A DNA stretch of 28,808 bases from positions 1-28,808 of IMG/VR virus record IMGVR_UViG_3300030116_000357; one strand, given 5' to 3'. Shown piece by piece: positions 3,658 through 21,421 of this stretch. A program made the position numbers and the translations under genes. The DNA comes from a virus. Position 1 is the first letter of the stretch, and each line of letters begins with the position of its first letter. Under the pieces are notes generated by a model. The model saw nothing but the letters and a program-made list of their open reading frames with translations. It was not told where the DNA came from and did not search any database.

Positions 3658-4263
3658 ATGATACTATTTGGCTATCCTGTACTTGTCTACGATAACGTCT
3701 TAGGCGAGCAGGAAAGAGAACGAGTTCACCAAGAATGTATAGCAATAGAAAAAGCAGATACAAAAACTAAAGCGATATGGGATTGTGATGTTTATACAAC
3801 ATGTTGGGATTCTGACATGCAAGACAATCCAAAGTTTAACTATCCTTTAAATGTATTTACAGATAAAACTAAACATTTTTTAAACGTACATGGTGTTGAA
3901 GAAAGTCCAGTACTAGAGGGTGCTTGGTTTAACTCTTATAGGAAAGAGCAGTTTCAGGATCAGCATACACACTTCAACACACATGTATCTGCTGTATACT
4001 TTCTTAGCGCACCAGAAGGTTCTGCTCCTTTGAAGTTCCACAATCCTGTACCCAGTAACTTTCAAATTGCTATGACATTTAAGAATGACCATCTAAGACC
4101 CTTAAAATATATACAGGCAGTAGATGATAGACTTGTTGTATTTCTATCCGCTACGCCACATTCAGTTCCGCAAGGATATAACGAAGATCCTAGATACAGC
4201 ATTGCTATAAACTACGGCATCACAGACCACAATAACTATAAGGCTACTCAGCTACCTAGCTGA
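3658..4263 (+). CDS. 2OG-Fe(II) oxygenase-like protein
   Basis: 201 aa, starting directly after the preceding stop. It resembles the putative 2OG-Fe(II) oxygenase family PF13759/TIGR02466, which couples oxidation of 2-oxoglutarate to hydroxylation of an unknown substrate on a double-stranded beta-helix. Visible signs are QDQHTHFNTHVSAVYFL (His103, His105, His109), the following SAPEGSAPLKFHNP loop, a distal ATPHSVPQG segment with His168 as likely third metal ligand, and Arg179 in RYSIAINYGI as likely 2-oxoglutarate contact. Which of His103/105/109 bind iron cannot be decided by eye. Marine phages often carry such enzymes, but here it sits between virion genes, so a virion-protein substrate is possible (inference). 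The ribosome-binding site is weak; translation may be coupled to the upstream gene. Confidence 0.68.
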   Translation: MILFGYPVLVYDNVLGEQERERVHQECIAIEKADTKTKAIWDCDVYTTCWDSDMQDNPKFNYPLNVFTDKTKHFLNVHGVEESPVLEGAWFNSYRKEQFQDQHTHFNTHVSAVYFLSAPEGSAPLKFHNPVPSNFQIAMTFKNDHLRPLKYIQAVDDRLVVFLSATPHSVPQGYNEDPRYSIAINYGITDHNNYKATQLPS

Positions 4264-7064: not shown

Positions 7065-9281
7065 ATGGCATTAATATTAAAAGATCGTGTAAAAGAAGGA
7101 ACCACCACTACAGGCACAGGCGCAATAAGTCTAGCAGGTGCAGGGGCTACCTTCAAAGCATTCACAGACTACATGTCCAATGGTGACACGACTTATTACG
7201 CCATTGCACATACTGCTTCAGGCGTAAATGAATGGGAAATAGGACTAGGAACTTGGAACACAGGTAATACATTAAGTCGTACTACAATACTTGCGAGTTC
7301 TAACTCCAACAATGTAGTCAACTTGTCTTCAGGTACTAAAGACATCTTTATGACATACCCTTCAGACAAGGCTGTGTTTACAGATGCAAGTGGCAACCTG
7401 ACTGTATCAGGTAATCTAACAGTTAGTGGCACAACAACTACAGTAAATAGTACAACTACTACTGTAGACGATCCTGTGTTTACAATAGGTGGTGACACAG
7501 CACCCTCATCAGATGATAACAAAGACAGAGGCATAGAGTTTCGTTGGCACGATGGATCTTCAGCTAAAGTAGGTTTCTTTGGCTTTGATGATAGCACAGG
7601 TAAATTTACATTCATACCAGATGCAACAAACTCAAGTGAAGTATTTAGTGGTTCAGCAGGTACTATTGTAGCTGCACTAGAGGGCAATGCGTCCACAGCA
7701 ACTACACTAGCAACAGCTAGAAACATTGCAGGTCAATCATTCGATGGTTCTGCTGACATTAATATACCACCTACAAGTCTAACAGGTGTTACAGCAGATG
7801 CAACAGAGATTAACACACTAGACGGTATTACTGCAACAACAGCAGAACTTAACCTGTTAGATGGAGTTACAGCTACTACAGCAGAGTTGAACTATGTAGA
7901 TGGTGTAACCTCTGCTATACAAACACAAATGGATACCAAAGGTGGTATTAATAGTATAGCAGTTACTGTTGTTAACTCTGGTGGAAACAAGTATGCTCTT
8001 GACGGAACAGTACAACAAACAGCTTTATTACAAAAAGGTGTAAGGGTAAGGTTTGATCAAAGTGACTCAAGCAACGCAGGTCACCCACTAAGACTAAGTA
8101 CTACATCAGACGGTACACACAATTCAGGTTCAGCGTTTTCCACAGGAGTTACCGTTGTAGGAACTCCGGGTTCAGCAGGAGCCTACACAGAAGTAATGCT
8201 TGAGCAAGATGCTCCAGATTTACTGTATACATATTGTACAAACCACTCAGGCATGGGAGCCAAAGTATATAGCGGAAAAGATTGGAGTACATTAACTTCT
8301 ACTATAGCTGAGTTAAACATTCTAGATGGTGTAACTTCTACTGCTGCAGAACTCAACATACTTGACGGTGTTACTTCCACAGCAGCAGAACTTAACATTC
8401 TTGATGGAGTTACTTCAACTACAGCAGAACTAAATATTCTTGATGGTGTAACATCAACAGCAGCAGAATTAAATCTTGTAGATGGTTCTAGTGCAGGTAC
8501 TATAGTTAATAGTAAAGCTGTAGTTTATGGATCATCAGGTGAAGTAAATGCTACTACACTACAAATAGGCGGCACAGCTATTACATCAACTCCTGCAGAG
8601 ATAAACTTACTAGATGGCGTAACTGCAACAACAGCAGAACTTAACATCTTAGATGGTGTAACTTCTACTGCTGCAGAGCTTAACATTCTTGATGGAGTTA
8701 CAGCAACCACAGCCGAACTAAACATTTTAGATGGTGTAACTTCTACTGCTTCTGAGTTAAATATCTTAGACGGTGTTACAGCAACAACAGCCGAACTAAA
8801 CATCATGGATGGAGTTACAGCAACTACGGCTGAACTAAATCTTATGGATGGTGTAACCGCCACCACAGCAGAACTAAACTACGTAGATGGTGTAACTTCA
8901 AATGTACAGACACAGCTAGACGCAAAAGTTCCTCTAGCAGGTGGGTCAATGACAGGTGCATTACGTCATGCTCAAAACAATCTAACCGCAATCGGTTCTA
9001 CACTAACTATTGACTTATCAGCAGCAAACAACTTTAGGATACAGATGATAGCAAACACTACTCTTGCGTTTAGTAATGTTAGTGCAGGTAGATTTGGTAA
9101 TCTTATTTTTGTGCAAGACAGTACAGGCGGTCGCAGTTTTACGCTACCATCAGCTTGTAAGACACCTGTTAACGGTGCATCTATTGTACAAAGCACTGGT
9201 GCAAACGAAGTAAGTGTGTTATCGTACTATGTGTTAGATAGCTCAAACATACTAGTGAACTACATTGGAGACTTTGCTTAA
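7065..9281 (+). CDS. Tail fibre with TAELN repeats and an embedded cupredoxin-like domain
   Basis: 738 aa. The N-terminus (MALILKDRVKEGTTTTGTG) is the anchoring module shared by many marine phage fibres. Residues about 110-240 are beta-rich (NLTVSGNLTVSGTTTTVNST). The shaft holds 16 copies of a 13-residue repeat (consensus TTAELNILDGVTS) in blocks of 3, 5 and 8. Between blocks 1 and 2, residues about 314-404 look like a cupredoxin: a strand with RVRFDQSDSSNAGHP (His340) and a closing YTYCTNHSGMG loop with Cys391, His394 and Met397, matching type-1 copper ligands. The C-terminal domain (from about residue 625: LAGGSMTGALRHAQN to NYIGDFA) is a likely knob. It should bind host surface structures. 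The stop overlaps the next ATG by one base. Copper binding is an inference. Confidence 0.85.
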   Translation: MALILKDRVKEGTTTTGTGAISLAGAGATFKAFTDYMSNGDTTYYAIAHTASGVNEWEIGLGTWNTGNTLSRTTILASSNSNNVVNLSSGTKDIFMTYPSDKAVFTDASGNLTVSGNLTVSGTTTTVNSTTTTVDDPVFTIGGDTAPSSDDNKDRGIEFRWHDGSSAKVGFFGFDDSTGKFTFIPDATNSSEVFSGSAGTIVAALEGNASTATTLATARNIAGQSFDGSADINIPPTSLTGVTADATEINTLDGITATTAELNLLDGVTATTAELNYVDGVTSAIQTQMDTKGGINSIAVTVVNSGGNKYALDGTVQQTALLQKGVRVRFDQSDSSNAGHPLRLSTTSDGTHNSGSAFSTGVTVVGTPGSAGAYTEVMLEQDAPDLLYTYCTNHSGMGAKVYSGKDWSTLTSTIAELNILDGVTSTAAELNILDGVTSTAAELNILDGVTSTTAELNILDGVTSTAAELNLVDGSSAGTIVNSKAVVYGSSGEVNATTLQIGGTAITSTPAEINLLDGVTATTAELNILDGVTSTAAELNILDGVTATTAELNILDGVTSTASELNILDGVTATTAELNIMDGVTATTAELNLMDGVTATTAELNYVDGVTSNVQTQLDAKVPLAGGSMTGALRHAQNNLTAIGSTLTIDLSAANNFRIQMIANTTLAFSNVSAGRFGNLIFVQDSTGGRSFTLPSACKTPVNGASIVQSTGANEVSVLSYYVLDSSNILVNYIGDFA
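7797..7913 (+). repeat. TAELN-LDGVT repeat block 1 (3 x 39 bp)
   Basis: Three in-frame 39-bp units, each encoding 13 residues (for example TTAELNLLDGVTA). The first unit is the most diverged (DATEINTLDGITA). It forms the beginning of the fibre shaft, just before the cupredoxin-like insertion. Confidence 0.9.
8301..8495 (+). repeat. TAELN-LDGVT repeat block 2 (5 x 39 bp)
   Basis: Five in-frame 39-bp units. The middle ones are identical at protein level (TAAELNILDGVTS) but differ at synonymous positions, so the array is old or under selection against recombination. The last unit ends LVDGSSA, breaking the pattern before a short spacer domain. Confidence 0.9.
8589..8900 (+). repeat. TAELN-LDGVT repeat block 3 (8 x 39 bp)
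   Basis: Eight continuous units with no indels, from TPAEINLLDGVTA to TTAELNYVDGVTS. Blocks 1 and 3 end with the same ELNYVDGVTS unit followed by a Gln-rich linker (IQTQMD and VQTQLD), which suggests duplication of a whole shaft segment. Confidence 0.9.
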
Positions 9282-9964
9282 TGTCGTGGTTTATAAATGG
9301 AATAAAAGAGTTTACTACTACGTTTACTACAACGTTTAGTACTTCTTCTACATTTACAACTACATTTGCAACTTCTAAGAGTACCACTACTACATTTGCA
9401 ACTTCTAAGAGTACAACTACTACATTCTCTACTTCTAAGAGTACAACAACATCTTACAACACATCTAGATCAACAACGACAACGTATCAAACTTCTCGTG
9501 GCACATCACGTACAACTACTTCATCTGTAACTCACAATGGTGGTAACAGTGACTACTGGATTTCTGCTCCTTGGTCTATGGTTAACATATACTGGGGAGC
9601 AACTCCTTATAGAAATCTTGGAGGTGGACACGGTACTACCTCAGTTAACTTTGGTGGCTATACTTGGTACAAGGGTAGCTTTAGGTTTAACTTGAACGAT
9701 GGGTATCCGTATTGGCGAGTGAATAGAACAGGGAGTCAAAGTTACACAACAAACTTTACTACTTACTTTAACACTTCACGTTCTACCACTACAACGTATG
9801 GTACTTCTCGCAGTACCACTACAACATACAATACTACTAGAAGTACAACTACTACGTTCGATACTACTAGAAGTACAACTACTACGTACAACACATCAAG
9901 AAGCACCACTACCACGTTTAACACATCTAGATCAACATCAAGGACAACAAACTTTTATGCCTAA
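9281..9964 (+). CDS. Thr/Ser decapeptide-repeat protein
   Basis: 227 aa, start chosen at the ATG overlapping the fibre stop (TAATG). Two repeat arms flank a compact centre. Residues 11-80 and 165-224 are arrays of a 10-residue unit (consensus TSRSTTTTYN) kept in exact register with no indels. Position 9 is always Phe or Tyr in the regular units, and position 3 is Lys or Arg. Residues about 85-150 are aromatic- and Gly-rich (DYWISAPWSMVNIYWGATPY, GGGHGTTSVNFGGYTWYKG) and look like a small beta domain. There is no signal peptide, Cys or catalytic motif. Context suggests a fibre or adhesin partner. The repeat could be a beta-solenoid or extended shaft, or an O-glycosylation substrate for the adjoining transferase-like protein. 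No family recognised. Confidence 0.75.
   Translation: MSWFINGIKEFTTTFTTTFSTSSTFTTTFATSKSTTTTFATSKSTTTTFSTSKSTTTSYNTSRSTTTTYQTSRGTSRTTTSSVTHNGGNSDYWISAPWSMVNIYWGATPYRNLGGGHGTTSVNFGGYTWYKGSFRFNLNDGYPYWRVNRTGSQSYTTNFTTYFNTSRSTTTTYGTSRSTTTTYNTTRSTTTTFDTTRSTTTTYNTSRSTTTTFNTSRSTSRTTNFYA
9311..9520 (+). repeat. N-terminal Thr/Ser decapeptide array
   Basis: Seven 30-bp units (residues 11-80). The first two are degenerate (FTTTFTTTFS, TSSTFTTTFA), then come TSKSTTTTFA-type units. At DNA level the array is built from ACT/ACA/TCT triplets, so slippage could change copy number. Confidence 0.85.
9743..9952 (+). repeat. C-terminal Thr/Ser decapeptide array
   Basis: Residues 155-224, with six clear units in perfect 10-residue register (TSRSTTTTYG, TTRSTTTTFD and relatives). 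Arg replaces the Lys used in most of the N-terminal array. DNA repeats such as AGTACAACTACTACG recur almost exactly. Confidence 0.85.
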
Positions 9965-10898
9965 AGATACAAATGTTAGTGATACTTTAGATAGCGCAAT
10001 CGCACAAAGCATTTATGGAGCTAGTAAATCAACAGAAGAATTTAAACAAGGAAAAACCGACATAGGTTGGCATCCTAAATTGTCACACTTAGTCGAGGTT
10101 GAGGCTTACGTAAAAAGTAAATTTCCCTACAAAGGCATACAGTTAGCTTATGATTGCACAGCGTCAGAAGATTTATACTTTGATACTATAAACTATACAA
10201 CGTTTGCAGGGTTCTTTATGATGCATCCTATGACGTTTGAACAAAGCTTACGTCAAATGTCTGACGCTTATGCTGATACAGTACAACCAGTAGGACATAT
10301 TGATTGGATTAAAAATAAAATAAAAAAAGATAAAACGTTCAGTAAGTATAGCTATGTAAATAAAGGCATCTCCACAGGAGCAGAAGCTTTAATAGTACTA
10401 CCCGGTGGAAACAAAATAAAGAAACATTGTTGCGTTGGAAAGATAGAATATATTTTAGAAAAGCATGGTGTTCAAAATGTTTTATTTAAAAAGCATCCTA
10501 TATCATGGGATGATGCATATAAAGAGTTAGATGATTACCTTGGTGGTATAAGATTTGCTAATGAGGATTCAGATTTATTTGAGTTAATAAAAAACTCAGA
10601 CTTTATATATTCTACCATGATTTCTGAAAGTGCTTTAACTGCATACATACTAGATAAAAATGTAGGCCACATTGATTTACTACAGAACAGAGACACAGGA
10701 TCTTTTTCACACGTAAACTACTATTTGTATAGCCATCCAAAACCACTAGAGTGGCTTGATAAAACTTTTGCATCCCCTAAGTCAGGTATCATACATCCAG
10801 AGTTAGATGAAAATTGGATAAAAAAGATAGACGATTACTTAGAGTACATTTTTCAACTTAGAAACTTTTACAGAGAAGCATATAGATTGGGTAACTAA
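9957..10898 (+). CDS. Glycosyltransferase-like protein (GT-B-like), coupled to the repeat protein
   Basis: 313 aa. The start is taken at ATG 9957, 8 bases before the preceding stop; upstream codons in this frame only read the Thr repeats out of frame. The sequence suggests two Rossmann-like halves. The second half carries a strand ALIVLPGG, the helix KIEYILEKHG, the strand NVLFKKHPI, then DLFELIKNSDFIYSTMISES and ALTAYILDKNVGHIDLL. This order, with SES before a helix, recalls the donor-binding half of GT-B enzymes such as capsule and TagF-type transferases. No classic signature is complete, so the donor sugar and activity are unknown. Codons are noticeably AT-richer than the fibre genes, consistent with separate acquisition. 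The overlap implies co-translation with the Thr/Ser protein. Confidence 0.42.
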   Translation: MPKDTNVSDTLDSAIAQSIYGASKSTEEFKQGKTDIGWHPKLSHLVEVEAYVKSKFPYKGIQLAYDCTASEDLYFDTINYTTFAGFFMMHPMTFEQSLRQMSDAYADTVQPVGHIDWIKNKIKKDKTFSKYSYVNKGISTGAEALIVLPGGNKIKKHCCVGKIEYILEKHGVQNVLFKKHPISWDDAYKELDDYLGGIRFANEDSDLFELIKNSDFIYSTMISESALTAYILDKNVGHIDLLQNRDTGSFSHVNYYLYSHPKPLEWLDKTFASPKSGIIHPELDENWIKKIDDYLEYIFQLRNFYREAYRLGN

Positions 10899-14767: not shown

Positions 14768-16519
14768 ATGCCAACAGGATATGTTAGACAGGATACTACA
14801 GGGCAGTTAGCCAACGGCAATCCTATTGATGCCGATTTGTTTAATGACGAATACAATGCCATTGTAAATGCCTTTAACGCTTCAACAGGTCACAGCCATG
14901 ACGGTACTACAGGCGGCGGTGCGCCTATATTAAAACTAGGTGCATCCAACGAATTAGAAGTAGATGCTAGTGCTGTGTTTCCAAAGATAGACAACTTAAT
15001 CGACTTAGGTAAAACTGGAAAACAATGGCGAGATGGTTACTTTGGACGCACTGTATACATTGGTGATGACCTTTCTGTTACAGATGATGCTACTATAGGA
15101 GGTGATCTAACTGTAACAGGTAATGCAACCATTAACGGAAACCTGACTTTAGGCGATGCAGCTACAGACAATGTTTCTTTTGGTGCAGACATAAACAGCC
15201 ACATCATACCTAACACAGATGATACCTTTGACTTAGGAAGCACAACACAAGAGTGGCGAAATATTTACATTGATGGAATAGCATACTTAGATGAAGTTGA
15301 TATTGATGCAGGTGCAATAGATGGTACACCGATTGGTGCAAACTCTGCAAGCACAGGTGCGTTTACAACTCTTGATGCTTCAGGTGCTACAGGTATTGAT
15401 GGTGACTTCGACATCAACACAAATAAATTTACTGTAGCAGCTTCATCTGGTAATACAGCGATTGCAGGTACACTAGCTGTAACTGGTGCAACTACTATGA
15501 CAGGTGCGCTTACAGCTAATGGCGGTGTTACAGGAGATTTAACAGGAAACGTTACAGGAAACTTGACAGGTGATGTTACATCTAGTGGTACTAGTGCATT
15601 AACTACAGTAAACGTATCCAACACATTTACCGCAAACGGTAACACTGTATTAGGTGACGCTGCTACAGATACAGTTACATTTAACGCAGACGTAGCATCT
15701 AATATCATACCTAGCGCAGACAGCACCTACACACTAGGCGATTCATCTAACTATTGGTCACACGGATATATTGATGCAGTTACCACTACAGGAAATGCTA
15801 CTATTGGCGGCAATGCTGTAATTACAGGTGACCTAACTGTTCAAGGTACAACAACAACCGTCAACTCTACTACAGTAGATGTCGCAGATCTTAACATAAC
15901 AGTCGCAAGTGGTGCGGCTAGTTCTGGTGCTGCTAATGGTGGGGGTCTTACTGTAGGTGGGGCAGGTGCAACATTTACGTACACAAGCTCTGATGACAGA
16001 TGGAACATGAATAAAGAGTTGACCGTAGGAAGAGTTCATGGTAATCTCACAGGAGATGTTACTGGAAACGTCACGGGTAACCTGACAGGTAACGTCACTG
16101 GGAATGTCACAGGAAATGTCACAGGAAACGTAGATGGTATTGTAGGTGGTACTACTCCTGCAGCAGGAACATTTACTACTTTACAATTCAACACAAGTAT
16201 CACTGATGGTACAACAACTATTACAGGCTTTGTTGATGAAGACAACATGTCATCAAACAGTGCAGCCCTTATACCAACACAACAATCCGTAAAGGCATAT
16301 GTAGACTCTTCTGTTCAAGGTGATTCATCCAGTGACTTTAGTGCTGCCTCTATTGATGCTACTGAGTTAGATCTAAATGGTGGCAATGGTTCAGGTTGGG
16401 TTATATACCAATCAGGTACAGATCTTAAATTTAAGTACAATGGCACAGACAGATTTAAACTTTCATCTGCAGGTGCTTTAGTTGTTGAAAATGACGTTAC
16501 CGCTTTCGGTGCTGCGTAA
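14768..16519 (+). CDS. Second tail fibre with GNVT repeats
   Basis: 583 aa, AAGGAA site just upstream. The N-terminal attachment module (MPTGYVRQDTTGQLANG, ADLFNDEYNAIVNAF, TGHSHDGTTGGGAP) is shared by marine phage fibres. The shaft has duplicated blocks: LGDAATDNVSFGADINSHII followed by DTFDLGSTTQEWRNIYIDGI, and again LGDAATDTVTFNADVASNII with STYTLGDSSNYWSHGYIDAV. Tetrapeptide GN(V/L)T runs and a VQGTTTTVNSTTVDVADLNI segment resembling fibre 1 follow. The C-terminus (GTDLKFKYNGTDRFKLSSAG to DVTAFGAA) is a short terminal domain with no intramolecular chaperone. It probably forms a trimeric beta-helical fibre; the receptor is unknown. Confidence 0.85.
   Translation: MPTGYVRQDTTGQLANGNPIDADLFNDEYNAIVNAFNASTGHSHDGTTGGGAPILKLGASNELEVDASAVFPKIDNLIDLGKTGKQWRDGYFGRTVYIGDDLSVTDDATIGGDLTVTGNATINGNLTLGDAATDNVSFGADINSHIIPNTDDTFDLGSTTQEWRNIYIDGIAYLDEVDIDAGAIDGTPIGANSASTGAFTTLDASGATGIDGDFDINTNKFTVAASSGNTAIAGTLAVTGATTMTGALTANGGVTGDLTGNVTGNLTGDVTSSGTSALTTVNVSNTFTANGNTVLGDAATDTVTFNADVASNIIPSADSTYTLGDSSNYWSHGYIDAVTTTGNATIGGNAVITGDLTVQGTTTTVNSTTVDVADLNITVASGAASSGAANGGGLTVGGAGATFTYTSSDDRWNMNKELTVGRVHGNLTGDVTGNVTGNLTGNVTGNVTGNVTGNVDGIVGGTTPAAGTFTTLQFNTSITDGTTTITGFVDEDNMSSNSAALIPTQQSVKAYVDSSVQGDSSSDFSAASIDATELDLNGGNGSGWVIYQSGTDLKFKYNGTDRFKLSSAGALVVENDVTAFGAA
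15533..15580 (+). repeat. Short GNVT tetrapeptide run
   Basis: Four 12-bp units (GDLT, GNVT, GNLT, GDVT) in fibre 2, a smaller relative of the longer run downstream in the same gene. Confidence 0.8.
16040..16135 (+). repeat. GNVT tetrapeptide run (8 x 12 bp)
   Basis: Eight consecutive 12-bp units encoding GN(V/L)T or GDVT, ending GNVD. Copy-number change would be in frame, so this can tune fibre length. Confidence 0.9.
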
Positions 16520-18297: not shown

Positions 18298-20085
18298 ATG
18301 GCTAAGAAATTTGTAGGGTTTAAGCCTGAAGTAATGCAAAAGAAAATACTCCCATCGTTGGGCTACAAAGGTGCAATGGATCAAAAGTCCATAAACCAGT
18401 TTCTTGCAGCTAGTCCTTCTGCAGCAGCTATGATGGGTCAGCTAACTTTAGCAGCTAAGAAATTAGTAGAACAAAAACCTGTAGAAGCTGCAGACGGTGT
18501 TCTTACAGGCAGTCAGTCTACAGGGCAGATACAAGAAGACCCAACTAAACCAGTTACTAAAGCAGCCACTGTTGCAGGAGATGGTGGAGCAGCAGCAAAA
18601 GTAGATCCTAATGCAGGGGATGCAGGAGCAGCAGCACAAGTAACACCTGCAGCAGCAGCACCTGCAGCACAAGCACAAGCAGCACCTACCACACCTGCTG
18701 CACAGGTACAGGCAACAGAAAGTCAAACAGCAGTCAGAGTAGCAGGAACACAACAACAAGCTGCACAAGGTAATGTGAGTCAACAAGCACAGGCACAAGC
18801 TGCACAAGCTGATCCTCAACAAGCATCACAACTAGGGTTACAAGCTGCACAGCTAGGACAGGCACAACAGGTACAAGCCCCTGCCCCTATGCAGATGACA
18901 GCAGATCAAACAATTAGTGGTTCTACAGTTGACCAAGCACAGGTAGATGCTACCCTAGCAAAATCAGAAGCTGCATCTGTAAAAGATGAACTAGATGATT
19001 TGATGCAAGATTTTCAGGGTGGTAAAACACCGTCATGGGCAGCAGGTGCTATGCGTAATGCAAACGCTATGATGGCTGCACGTGGTCTAGGTGCATCCTC
19101 TATGGCAGGTATGGCAGTTGTACAAGCTGCTATGGAAGCGGCCTTACCCATTGCTCAGATGGATGCATCAAACAAACAGCAAATGGCTATGGCAAAAGCA
19201 GAGCAACGTGCCGCTTTTTTAGGACAGGAGTTTGATCAGAACTTTCAGGCCAAGGTAAAGAACGCAGCACGTGTATCAGAGATTGCAAACATTAACTTTA
19301 GTGCAGAGCAGCAGGTAGCACTAGAGAATGCTAAGATGGCTCAGACTGTAGACCTAGCTAACCTGTCAAACAATCAAGCTAAAGTTATGGCTGATGCTGC
19401 AACTATGGCAAACATGGACATGGCTAATTTAGACAATAGACAAAAAGCTGCAATGCAAAATGCCCAGTCGTTTTTACAAATGGACATGACTAACCTGAGT
19501 AATGAACAGCAGACAACAATGTTTAAAGCACAGTCTCAGATAGCTTCTATCATGTCTGATCAAGCAGCAGACAATGCAGCCAAACAATTTAACGCTACAT
19601 CACAAAACCAAACAGATCAGTTCTTTGCAACTATGGCTACACAGGTTTCACAGTTTAACACAGAACAAACCAACGCTATGGAACGTTTCAATGCAGGTGA
19701 AGCAAACGCTATAGGCAAGTTCAATGCTGCACAAGAAAATGCACGTGAGCAATTCAATACACAAAACCATCTTGTAATTGCACAAGCAAATGCTAAGTGG
19801 GCGCAAAGTATAACTACTGCAGAGAACGCTGCAAACAATCAGGCAAACCGTGATGCAGCTATGGCAGCAAACGGCCTGACAAGAGCAGCATACGATGCTG
19901 TGTTACAAAGAGAAAGAGACATATTAGGATGGGCATGGAAGTCCTCCGAAAACGCAGCACAAAGGGATAACAACATTGCTACTGCTAAAATTTCTGCTGA
20001 TGGTAAAGGTTCTGCTGCCTTTGAAGCAGGGCTTGGAAGTTTCGTGGGTAAACTTACAGAACGAGCAATCGGTTCTATCTTCTAA
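18298..20085 (+). CDS. Internal virion / ejection protein candidate with hendecad repeats
   Basis: 595 aa, start after AGGGAAAT. Four parts are visible. Residues 1-65 are a helical N-terminal domain (FVGFKPEVMQKKILPSLGYK). Residues about 66-230 are a very Ala/Gln-rich, probably disordered stretch. A long helical region follows from about 230 to 560. The C-terminus (FEAGLGSFVGKLTERAIGSI) resembles a short amphipathic anchor. Residues 333-420 are four 22-residue units (starting NFSAEQQ, NLSNNQA, NLDNRQK, NLSNEQQ) and 430-495 are six 11-residue units each led by (Q/R/K)-F. The 11/22 period indicates a very long straight amphipathic helix. A role as a head-internal protein or a DNA-translocation conduit like T7 gp14-16 is inferred from position and form. 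Confidence 0.6.
   Translation: MAKKFVGFKPEVMQKKILPSLGYKGAMDQKSINQFLAASPSAAAMMGQLTLAAKKLVEQKPVEAADGVLTGSQSTGQIQEDPTKPVTKAATVAGDGGAAAKVDPNAGDAGAAAQVTPAAAAPAAQAQAAPTTPAAQVQATESQTAVRVAGTQQQAAQGNVSQQAQAQAAQADPQQASQLGLQAAQLGQAQQVQAPAPMQMTADQTISGSTVDQAQVDATLAKSEAASVKDELDDLMQDFQGGKTPSWAAGAMRNANAMMAARGLGASSMAGMAVVQAAMEAALPIAQMDASNKQQMAMAKAEQRAAFLGQEFDQNFQAKVKNAARVSEIANINFSAEQQVALENAKMAQTVDLANLSNNQAKVMADAATMANMDMANLDNRQKAAMQNAQSFLQMDMTNLSNEQQTTMFKAQSQIASIMSDQAADNAAKQFNATSQNQTDQFFATMATQVSQFNTEQTNAMERFNAGEANAIGKFNAAQENAREQFNTQNHLVIAQANAKWAQSITTAENAANNQANRDAAMAANGLTRAAYDAVLQRERDILGWAWKSSENAAQRDNNIATAKISADGKGSAAFEAGLGSFVGKLTERAIGSIF
19294..19557 (+). repeat. Four 22-residue helical repeats (66 bp)
   Basis: Protein-level repeats with starts exactly 66 bp apart (19294, 19360, 19426, 19492). 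Each begins N-(F/L)-(S/D) and shares Gln and Met/Ala positions. DNA identity is low, so these are old structural repeats. Confidence 0.75.
19585..19782 (+). repeat. Six 11-residue (hendecad) repeats
   Basis: Six 33-bp units in perfect register: QFNATSQNQTD, QFFATMATQVS, QFNTEQTNAME, RFNAGEANAIG, KFNAAQENARE, QFNTQNHLVIA. Phe recurs every 11 residues, the signature of a right-handed coiled coil or membrane-lying helix. Confidence 0.8.
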
Positions 20086-20101
20086 AAACACAGGTATAAA
20101 A

Positions 20102-21421
20102 ATGACATACGATCCTAGACAATCTTTTAAAGCACAGCAACTGTCTTACGCTAGAGCAGCAGGAACACAGACGAGTAAGCAGCAGGGTATATCTAAAGGA
20201 AGAGGTACACCCGACTATTCTTCTAGTGCTTATGATAGTGGTGGTTATGATGAAATAAAATTACCCACTGCTTCACAGGTAGATAAAAAGATTTCAGGTC
20301 TAGGTTCTCCTAGTAGTGGAGATAAAGATGATAGAAACTTAGATCAAAAAATCTATGATGGCATGAAGTATTACGGTGCTAAGTTTTTGGGATTAGATAA
20401 ACCAGACCCAAGAGCAGATGATATGTTTCTACTAGAAGTGTATGGTGGGGATGATATGTTTGTTATACCTGAACCTACACCTGTAACTGTGACAGGCATA
20501 GGCGGTAGTACATATGACTTTATAGATATGTCTAAGTTGGGTAGTGATCCAAAACAGCCAAGGACACAACCTAATATGGACACAACACCACAGATAGGTG
20601 GCTATGATGAAGCACCTGTTACTACTCCAAAAGTTCCGGGTTTAATGTCTCCTCCTACTATAGATCAACCCAATATTGTTGATGATGAAATAGGAAGACT
20701 TGCAGGAGAAGTTTCTGCGACTGCAGCTTACACAATACAATCAGGTGATACTTTAGGTGAGATAGCTGAAGCAACAGGTACTACTGTTGAAGAACTAATG
20801 GTTATTAATGGGATAGAAGACAAACACAAAATAGTGGCAGGTAAAGATATAAAGATACCCATATACAGAGATGTGGATGCAGAAGTAGTAGAGAACGCTA
20901 CAAGTATGAAAGAACTTGAACCTATTAAAACAGCTTACCCATTAGTCAACGCATTACCTCCGCTTAAACCAAATGTAAGTTTAGAAGATGCTATCATAAC
21001 TAGACTAAAAGCAGAAGAGGGTATTGACTACGTAGCAGAGAAAAAGTTTGGTGAAGAGTTTTACACCATAGGACATGGACACTATGGGGCTGATGTAAAA
21101 GAAGGTCAAACTATTACTGCAAAAGAGGCAGATGCTTTACTACGTAAAGACTTAGCAAAAAGAATGCCTAAAATAAGAAGAGCAATCAAAAACTATGATA
21201 AATTGAGTCAAGAGTTACAAGTAGAAATAGCACAAAGTTGGTTTAGGGGTGGCATAGCAGGAAGTCCTAAAACAATAAGACTAATAAATGAGGGTAAGTT
21301 TCAGGAGGCATCCGAAGAATTTTTAGATAACAACGAATACAGAACAACAACCTTGCGTGGTGTTAAACGTAGGATGAAGGGGTTATCTGATACACTAGCA
21401 AAGGAAGCTAATAGGATATAA
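20102..21421 (+). CDS. LysM plus T4-type (GH24) lysozyme
   Basis: 439 aa from ATG 20102; earlier codons in this frame overlap the preceding gene and are unlikely. Residues 1-205 are Pro/Thr/Asp-rich and probably disordered, with no signal peptide. A LysM domain lies at 210-253 (YTIQSGDTLGEIAEATGTTV to IKIP) and would bind peptidoglycan glycans. The catalytic domain spans about 295-439. Glu306 in LKAEEG is the general acid, Thr322 in FYTIGHGHYG matches T4 Thr26, and the C-terminal EYRTTTLRGVKRRMKG segment fits GH24. The usual Asp between them is not evident: Lys occupies its expected place. The long leader and lack of export signal allow either an endolysin or a virion-borne lysozyme. A holin-like gene follows one base later. 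Confidence 0.8.
   Translation: MTYDPRQSFKAQQLSYARAAGTQTSKQQGISKGRGTPDYSSSAYDSGGYDEIKLPTASQVDKKISGLGSPSSGDKDDRNLDQKIYDGMKYYGAKFLGLDKPDPRADDMFLLEVYGGDDMFVIPEPTPVTVTGIGGSTYDFIDMSKLGSDPKQPRTQPNMDTTPQIGGYDEAPVTTPKVPGLMSPPTIDQPNIVDDEIGRLAGEVSATAAYTIQSGDTLGEIAEATGTTVEELMVINGIEDKHKIVAGKDIKIPIYRDVDAEVVENATSMKELEPIKTAYPLVNALPPLKPNVSLEDAIITRLKAEEGIDYVAEKKFGEEFYTIGHGHYGADVKEGQTITAKEADALLRKDLAKRMPKIRRAIKNYDKLSQELQVEIAQSWFRGGIAGSPKTIRLINEGKFQEASEEFLDNNEYRTTTLRGVKRRMKGLSDTLAKEANRI

Follow-up and report, generated by a model that had tools for sequence, protein, structure and literature searches.

A predicted type-1-like copper site in a cupredoxin-fold module of a phage tail-fibre protein

The virus record examined here, a stretch of 28,808 bases which is referred to as the window, encodes a tail-fibre-like protein in which a domain reminiscent of the small blue copper proteins is set among fibre repeats (Table 1). 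The question raised by this locus is whether a phage fibre carries a cupredoxin with a working copper site, a cupredoxin fold that serves without metal, or a different beta-sandwich in which a few suggestive residues fall together by coincidence. The major head protein encoded in the window has 79% identity to that of Roseobacter phage CRP-2 and 60% to that of Puniceispirillum phage HMO-2011, and on account of these identities the window most likely represents a genome fragment from a marine podovirus of the HMO-2011 type.

The protein has a fibre-type N-terminus, followed by TAELN..DGVT repeats and then a C-terminal fibre domain. It matches the PHROG families phrog_697 (structural protein) and phrog_693, phrog_30742 and phrog_1833 (tail fiber protein), and its fibre relatives are found in HMO-2011-type roseophages and others. 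Homology to fibre families together with the shaft repeats places it among the tail fibres, the context that the preliminary description had proposed. Translation and Tandem Repeats Finder both show TAELN..DGVT repeats on either side of the domain, which had likewise been described as lying between two TAELN blocks. The fibres of cultured HMO-2011-group phages match the protein outside the cupredoxin-like domain, and no cultured relative of this group was present among the domain-carrying phages when 50,697 phage records were scanned.

Table 1. Features of the tail-fibre-like gene and of its cupredoxin-like domain (window coordinates).
Feature	Position	Strand	Basis
Tail-fibre-like protein, 738 aa, carrier of the domain	7065..9281	+	ORF, PHROG
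Upstream TAELN repeats, ending in the linker NYVDGVTSAIQTQMDTK into the domain	7800..7955	+	Translation
Cupredoxin-like domain, residues ~298-406	7956..8282	+	Homology over 107-112 residues, AlphaFold2, Foldseek
His340, first predicted copper ligand, followed by Pro	8082..8084	+	Numbering; invariant in alignment A2; 353/356 copies
Cys391, predicted thiolate ligand	8235..8237	+	Invariant in A2; aligns with ligand Cys of cellular cupredoxins
His394, predicted ligand	8244..8246	+	Invariant in A2; aligns with ligand His of cellular cupredoxins
Met397, predicted axial ligand (C-x2-H-x2-M, amicyanin spacing)	8253..8255	+	Invariant in A2; aligns with cupredoxin Met
Downstream 39-bp (13-residue) TAELN..DGVT tandem repeats, fibre shaft	8293..8901	+	Tandem Repeats Finder, translation

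A number of other genes were identified in the window. A second fibre-like gene (14768-16519; phrog_697, phrog_25747) is devoid of the cupredoxin-like domain. The products of two ORFs (9281-9964 and 9798-10898) are rich in threonine; the ORFs contain tandem repeats of 30 bases (TTTFATSKS-like units) and share 167 bases within the repeat region. A 2OG-Fe(II) oxygenase (3658-4263; phrog_81, E 1e-28) is encoded directly upstream of the head genes. There is also a 481-residue protein (19976-21421) with two lysis-type modules, one transglycosylase-like (residues ~245-311) and one of the phrog_7 endolysin family (residues ~331-466). Its ORF opens with TTG and the first 110 bases also belong to the preceding ORF, suggesting that the true start is probably located downstream.

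The translation of the fibre gene contains RVRFDQSDSSNAGHP and the closing loop YTYCTNHSGMG, the latter bearing Cys391, His394 and Met397 as first described, and the numbering of these residues and of His340 was correct. Their order, His...Cys-x2-His-x2-Met, is that of a type-1 copper site. The likeness of the loop to that of amicyanin also held, with identical spacing in 7 of 46 aligned cellular PF00127 domains. The extent first given for the domain (8004-8276) does correspond to residues 314-404, but homology and the structural model point to a longer domain that begins about 16 residues earlier, since the first two strands (IAVTVVNSGGNKYALDG) precede or sit at position 8004. Placement of His340 inside a strand was not borne out; the model puts it in a loop just before one. 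The C-x2-H-x2-M motif on its own is not above chance at the DNA level in the window (2 found, 1.57 expected), and so the case for a metal site is carried instead by homology, fold and conservation.

Homology to established cupredoxins was apparent in profile-profile comparisons. With hhalign, alignment A2 matched the set of 46 cellular PF00127 domains, which come from other genomes and in which row L377 is misread, with a probability of 92.6 (E 4.7e-7), and alignment A3, representing the P-TIM68-type clade, did so with a probability of 96.4 (E 1e-9); a reversed control gave 0.1-0.4. In the profile alignments of both A2 and A1 the first His, the Cys, the second His and the Met pair with their cupredoxin counterparts. 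Searches of PDB and Pfam with the single sequence of the window copy gave chance matches only; this copy has no Pfam match and PF00127 was not found anywhere in the window. Single members of the family do reach PF00127 (best E 1.8e-4), falling below the curated cut-off where a score is shown, as with relative L007 at 19.7 bits against 21.2 bits. As the window copy gives no match and L007 is under the cut-off, the domain is not filed under PF00127 and is classed, from sequence, as a predicted cupredoxin-superfamily domain with a type-1 ligand set. No cellular homologues were found in genome contigs with the P-TIM68-type profile, and a search of such contigs with a copy from Prochlorococcus phage MED4-213 returned two MAG contigs, possibly phage-derived, and one 19-residue match in Clostridium. 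MED4-213 itself has two such copies (L162:3001-3348 and L162:4768-4995), very divergent cupredoxin-like domains with full ligand sets that share one ‘hypothetical protein’.

The AlphaFold2 model built from A2 (pLDDT 91.3, pTM 0.83) has nine predicted strands, in keeping with the cupredoxin fold, a Greek-key beta-sandwich of about eight strands. Foldseek ranked 2ux6, a pseudoazurin with an engineered amicyanin loop, first in the PDB (E 2.5e-3, prob 1.00), and ranks 1-6 were all cupredoxin-type, comprising after 2ux6 another pseudoazurin, rusticyanins and the cupredoxin domain of a nitrite reductase, although no match in this list passes E 1e-3. Plastocyanin 1byp was also matched, with TM scores of 0.57/0.63. 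Predicted strands 45-48, 89-94 and 103-106 surround domain residues 43, 94, 97 and 100, such that the first His sits on a loop that leads into a strand and the Cys-His-Met group on the loop that connects the final two, a placement as in blue copper proteins. An earlier model from 36 close homologues (pLDDT 80.6) had given a mixed list of cupredoxins and antibodies, which the wider alignment resolved. The cupredoxin fold with a complete type-1 ligand set, as proposed in the preliminary description, is supported by the structural prediction, by the profile alignments and by the conservation of the four residues, above that of nearly all others, in remote homologues.

Scans of viral contigs returned hundreds of relatives of the domain. 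Alignment A2 consists of 85 homologues that are 25-68% identical to the window copy (the ligand-poor L266 and the truncated L268 being left out), and its only invariant columns are H43, G69, C94, H97 and M100 in domain numbering, these being the four ligands and one glycine. In the contig scans all four ligands are kept in 350 of 356 domain copies, or 47 of 50 when made non-redundant at 70%. These scans use short peptides, some of which span ligands, and copies obtained free of any ligand-bearing search peptide served as the control, with all four ligands present in 110 of 116 (27 of 30 non-redundant). Only one contig copy, L266, has a partial set, in which the Cys and the second His are missing while the first His and the Met remain.

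The clearest result came from 23 copies from named phages that were reached by BLAST with no peptide selection, their ligand states being read by eye from translations. Fourteen possess all four ligands, seven have none and two have the first His only; sets of two or three do not occur. Column shuffles of these copies gave an expectation of 3.6 with all four ligands and never so few intermediates, bearing in mind that the shuffled sequences are mutually related and that the shuffle therefore gives no probability. Such an all-or-none pattern is what would be expected of one metal site and not of unrelated packing residues. A tree of the domain has two ligand-state changes where one is possible, though it is poorly resolved owing to the shortness of the domain, and row L161 is out of frame. 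The window copy is of the complete-ligand kind. The ligand-free relatives (L395-L400, L404-L406) belong to cyanophage fibre and baseplate-region proteins, and such copies occupy other virion proteins, an example being the fibre family of S-SM1, S-RIM12 and P-RSM3. Their persistence suggests that phages can use the fold without the metal site.

The domain also appears to be mobile. Over the first 283 residues of the window fibre two others (L410, L411) share 86% identity with it, and they do not possess the domain, while a third (L412, 89%) carries it about 110 residues further on, flanked at both ends by near-identical repeat linkers, the one before the domain (TSAIQTQIDTK) being near-identical to that of the window. 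In L413 and L414 the domain lies at the position equivalent to that in the window fibre. Other carriers are a baseplate wedge protein (L202), the P-TIM68 connector between baseplate wedge and fibre, a virion protein close to the S-TIM5 portal, and a fibre of the collagen-like type that has the domain in its interior (L186). Small proteins of some 240 residues bear it C-terminally, while in a head-tail adaptor of the SU10 type (PF24175; L025, 2977-3996) it is N-terminal; the number of copies per locus ranges from one to three. The adaptor N-terminus is an unusual place for a decoration domain. As near-identical fibres lack the domain or carry it elsewhere, and as it is fused to other virion proteins, its sequence distribution indicates that it is a plug-in module. 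Matches occur in 309 of the 50,697 phage records, namely phages of Synechococcus, Prochlorococcus, Pelagibacter and Methylophilales along with a few marine or uncultured records, and judging by names and hosts all 309 are aquatic. Phages S-TIM5, P-SSM2, HTVC028P and Baldr are among the carriers available in culture.

With the structural model, the profile alignments with their reversed control and the conservation of the ligands in agreement, residues ~298-406 are best read as a mobile cupredoxin-fold module between fibre shaft repeats. We regard it as likely that this module has a type-1-like site formed by His340, Cys391, His394 and Met397, very probably holding one mononuclear copper. One feature of the window copy was counted against copper, that being the Pro which follows His340, since in small blue copper proteins the first His is mostly followed by Asn or Ser. 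Pro is usual after the type-1 His of multicopper oxidases, whose His-Pro is the same as that of the phage domain.

The alternative that departs least from this reading accepts the cupredoxin fold and regards it as a metal-free spacer or adhesion sandwich, the four residues persisting because they serve packing or are simply inherited. Ephrins have the cupredoxin fold and bind no metal, metal-free Ig-like sandwiches are often carried by phage virions, and ligand-free copies of the present domain exist in several fibre and baseplate families. However, at 25-40% identity hardly any other column persists as these four do, and where they disappear they do so together; packing offers no plain reason why a free Cys should be conserved jointly with two His and one Met, leaving this explanation unlikely. 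Structural binding of Zn, Fe or Ni in place of copper is a smaller prospect and in our estimation quite improbable: metal selectivity is unreadable from sequence, and iron held by paired histidines (HxH) is documented in the tail fibres of phage T4 and proposed for marine phages (PMC11705849), but the type, order and spacing of the ligands here are those of type-1 copper, the protein closest in fold is a blue copper protein that bears exactly this loop, and HxH iron is held in an arrangement unlike that of cupredoxins. An immunoglobulin-like domain with a coincidental CxxHxxM loop is hardly to be expected. Ig V domains do appear among the Foldseek matches of both models and among weak sequence matches, and BFVD gives one relative the name ‘Immunoglobulin domain-containing’, yet in the list of the better model they stand below the top six, with lower probability and TM scores mostly of 0.35-0.43 against 0.50-0.57, and the profile alignment is to cupredoxins while its reversed control failed.

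A further proposal competes with the role of the module and not with its copper site, namely that the metallated module acts as copper bait, docking to an outer-membrane copper uptake receptor of the host. Its position in a fibre and its occurrence in aquatic phages accord with this, as does the iron Trojan-horse idea, proposed for iron in fibre HxH sites (PMC11705849). A module with a receptor-specific role would not be expected in head-tail adaptors, in baseplates or in small structural proteins, all of which contain this one, and because of its presence in adaptors and baseplates copper bait is not favoured and seems rather improbable. Electron transfer is also unlikely, because the domain sits in a fibre with no known partner. 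The most likely role would be that of an accessory adhesion or decoration domain, comparable in use to the Ig-like domains of phages. Such an accessory module would be made in the apo form inside the cell and may take up one copper ion at or after lysis, or in the water; it would be exposed at the virion surface, where the metal might fix its fold or its binding face.

With the amicyanin, pseudoazurin and plastocyanin group (PF00127) the phage domain shares the predicted fold, the order H...C-x2-H-x2-M and the loop Y-x-Y-x-C-x-x-H-x-x-M-x-G. Those proteins are soluble electron carriers, whereas the phage domain is embedded in virion proteins, has the Pro after the first His and, in the window copy, misses the PF00127 cut-off. 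Rusticyanin and copper nitrite reductase are represented among the Foldseek matches (1rcy, 2dv6), and nitrite reductase 9cck gives a weak but register-consistent sequence match; the phage domain differs from these and from the multicopper oxidases in having no second copper centre, no enzyme partner and other loop lengths. Phage Ig-like domains are, like this module, mobile and dispensable sandwich decorations of fibres, baseplate and other structural proteins, but the module is distinguished from them by cupredoxin topology and a conserved set of metal ligands. Phage T4 gp37 and the marine fibre HxH sites have in common with it a metal in a phage fibre (predicted in the present case), though theirs is iron held by paired histidines (PMC11705849), unlike a cupredoxin domain in which Cys and Met take part.

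So far the discussion of metal sites in phage fibres has mainly concerned iron (PMC11705849). A literature search among open-licence papers found none linking cupredoxins or type-1 copper with phage tail fibres, tails or virions, an absence which is no proof. A mobile, virion-borne module of the blue-copper type appears to be undescribed so far, while its parts are of known kinds and automatic database annotation may already flag some family members.

More broadly, it is conceivable, though we hold this only tentatively, that aquatic phages share a widespread and horizontally moving blue-copper module in their virions (in fibres, baseplates, adaptors and small structural proteins), and that many marine particles among them carry several copper ions which matter for host attachment or particle function and make virions a part of the marine copper ligand pool. 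If this were true, a conserved type-1 copper ligand set across aquatic phages would add redox-active copper to the chemistry of the virion, and many structural-protein domains of cyanophages and pelagiphages now listed as ‘unknown’ would gain a function that is readily assayed by colour, EPR and copper content. Should the module be metallated in nature, it would also bear on the speciation of copper in seawater.
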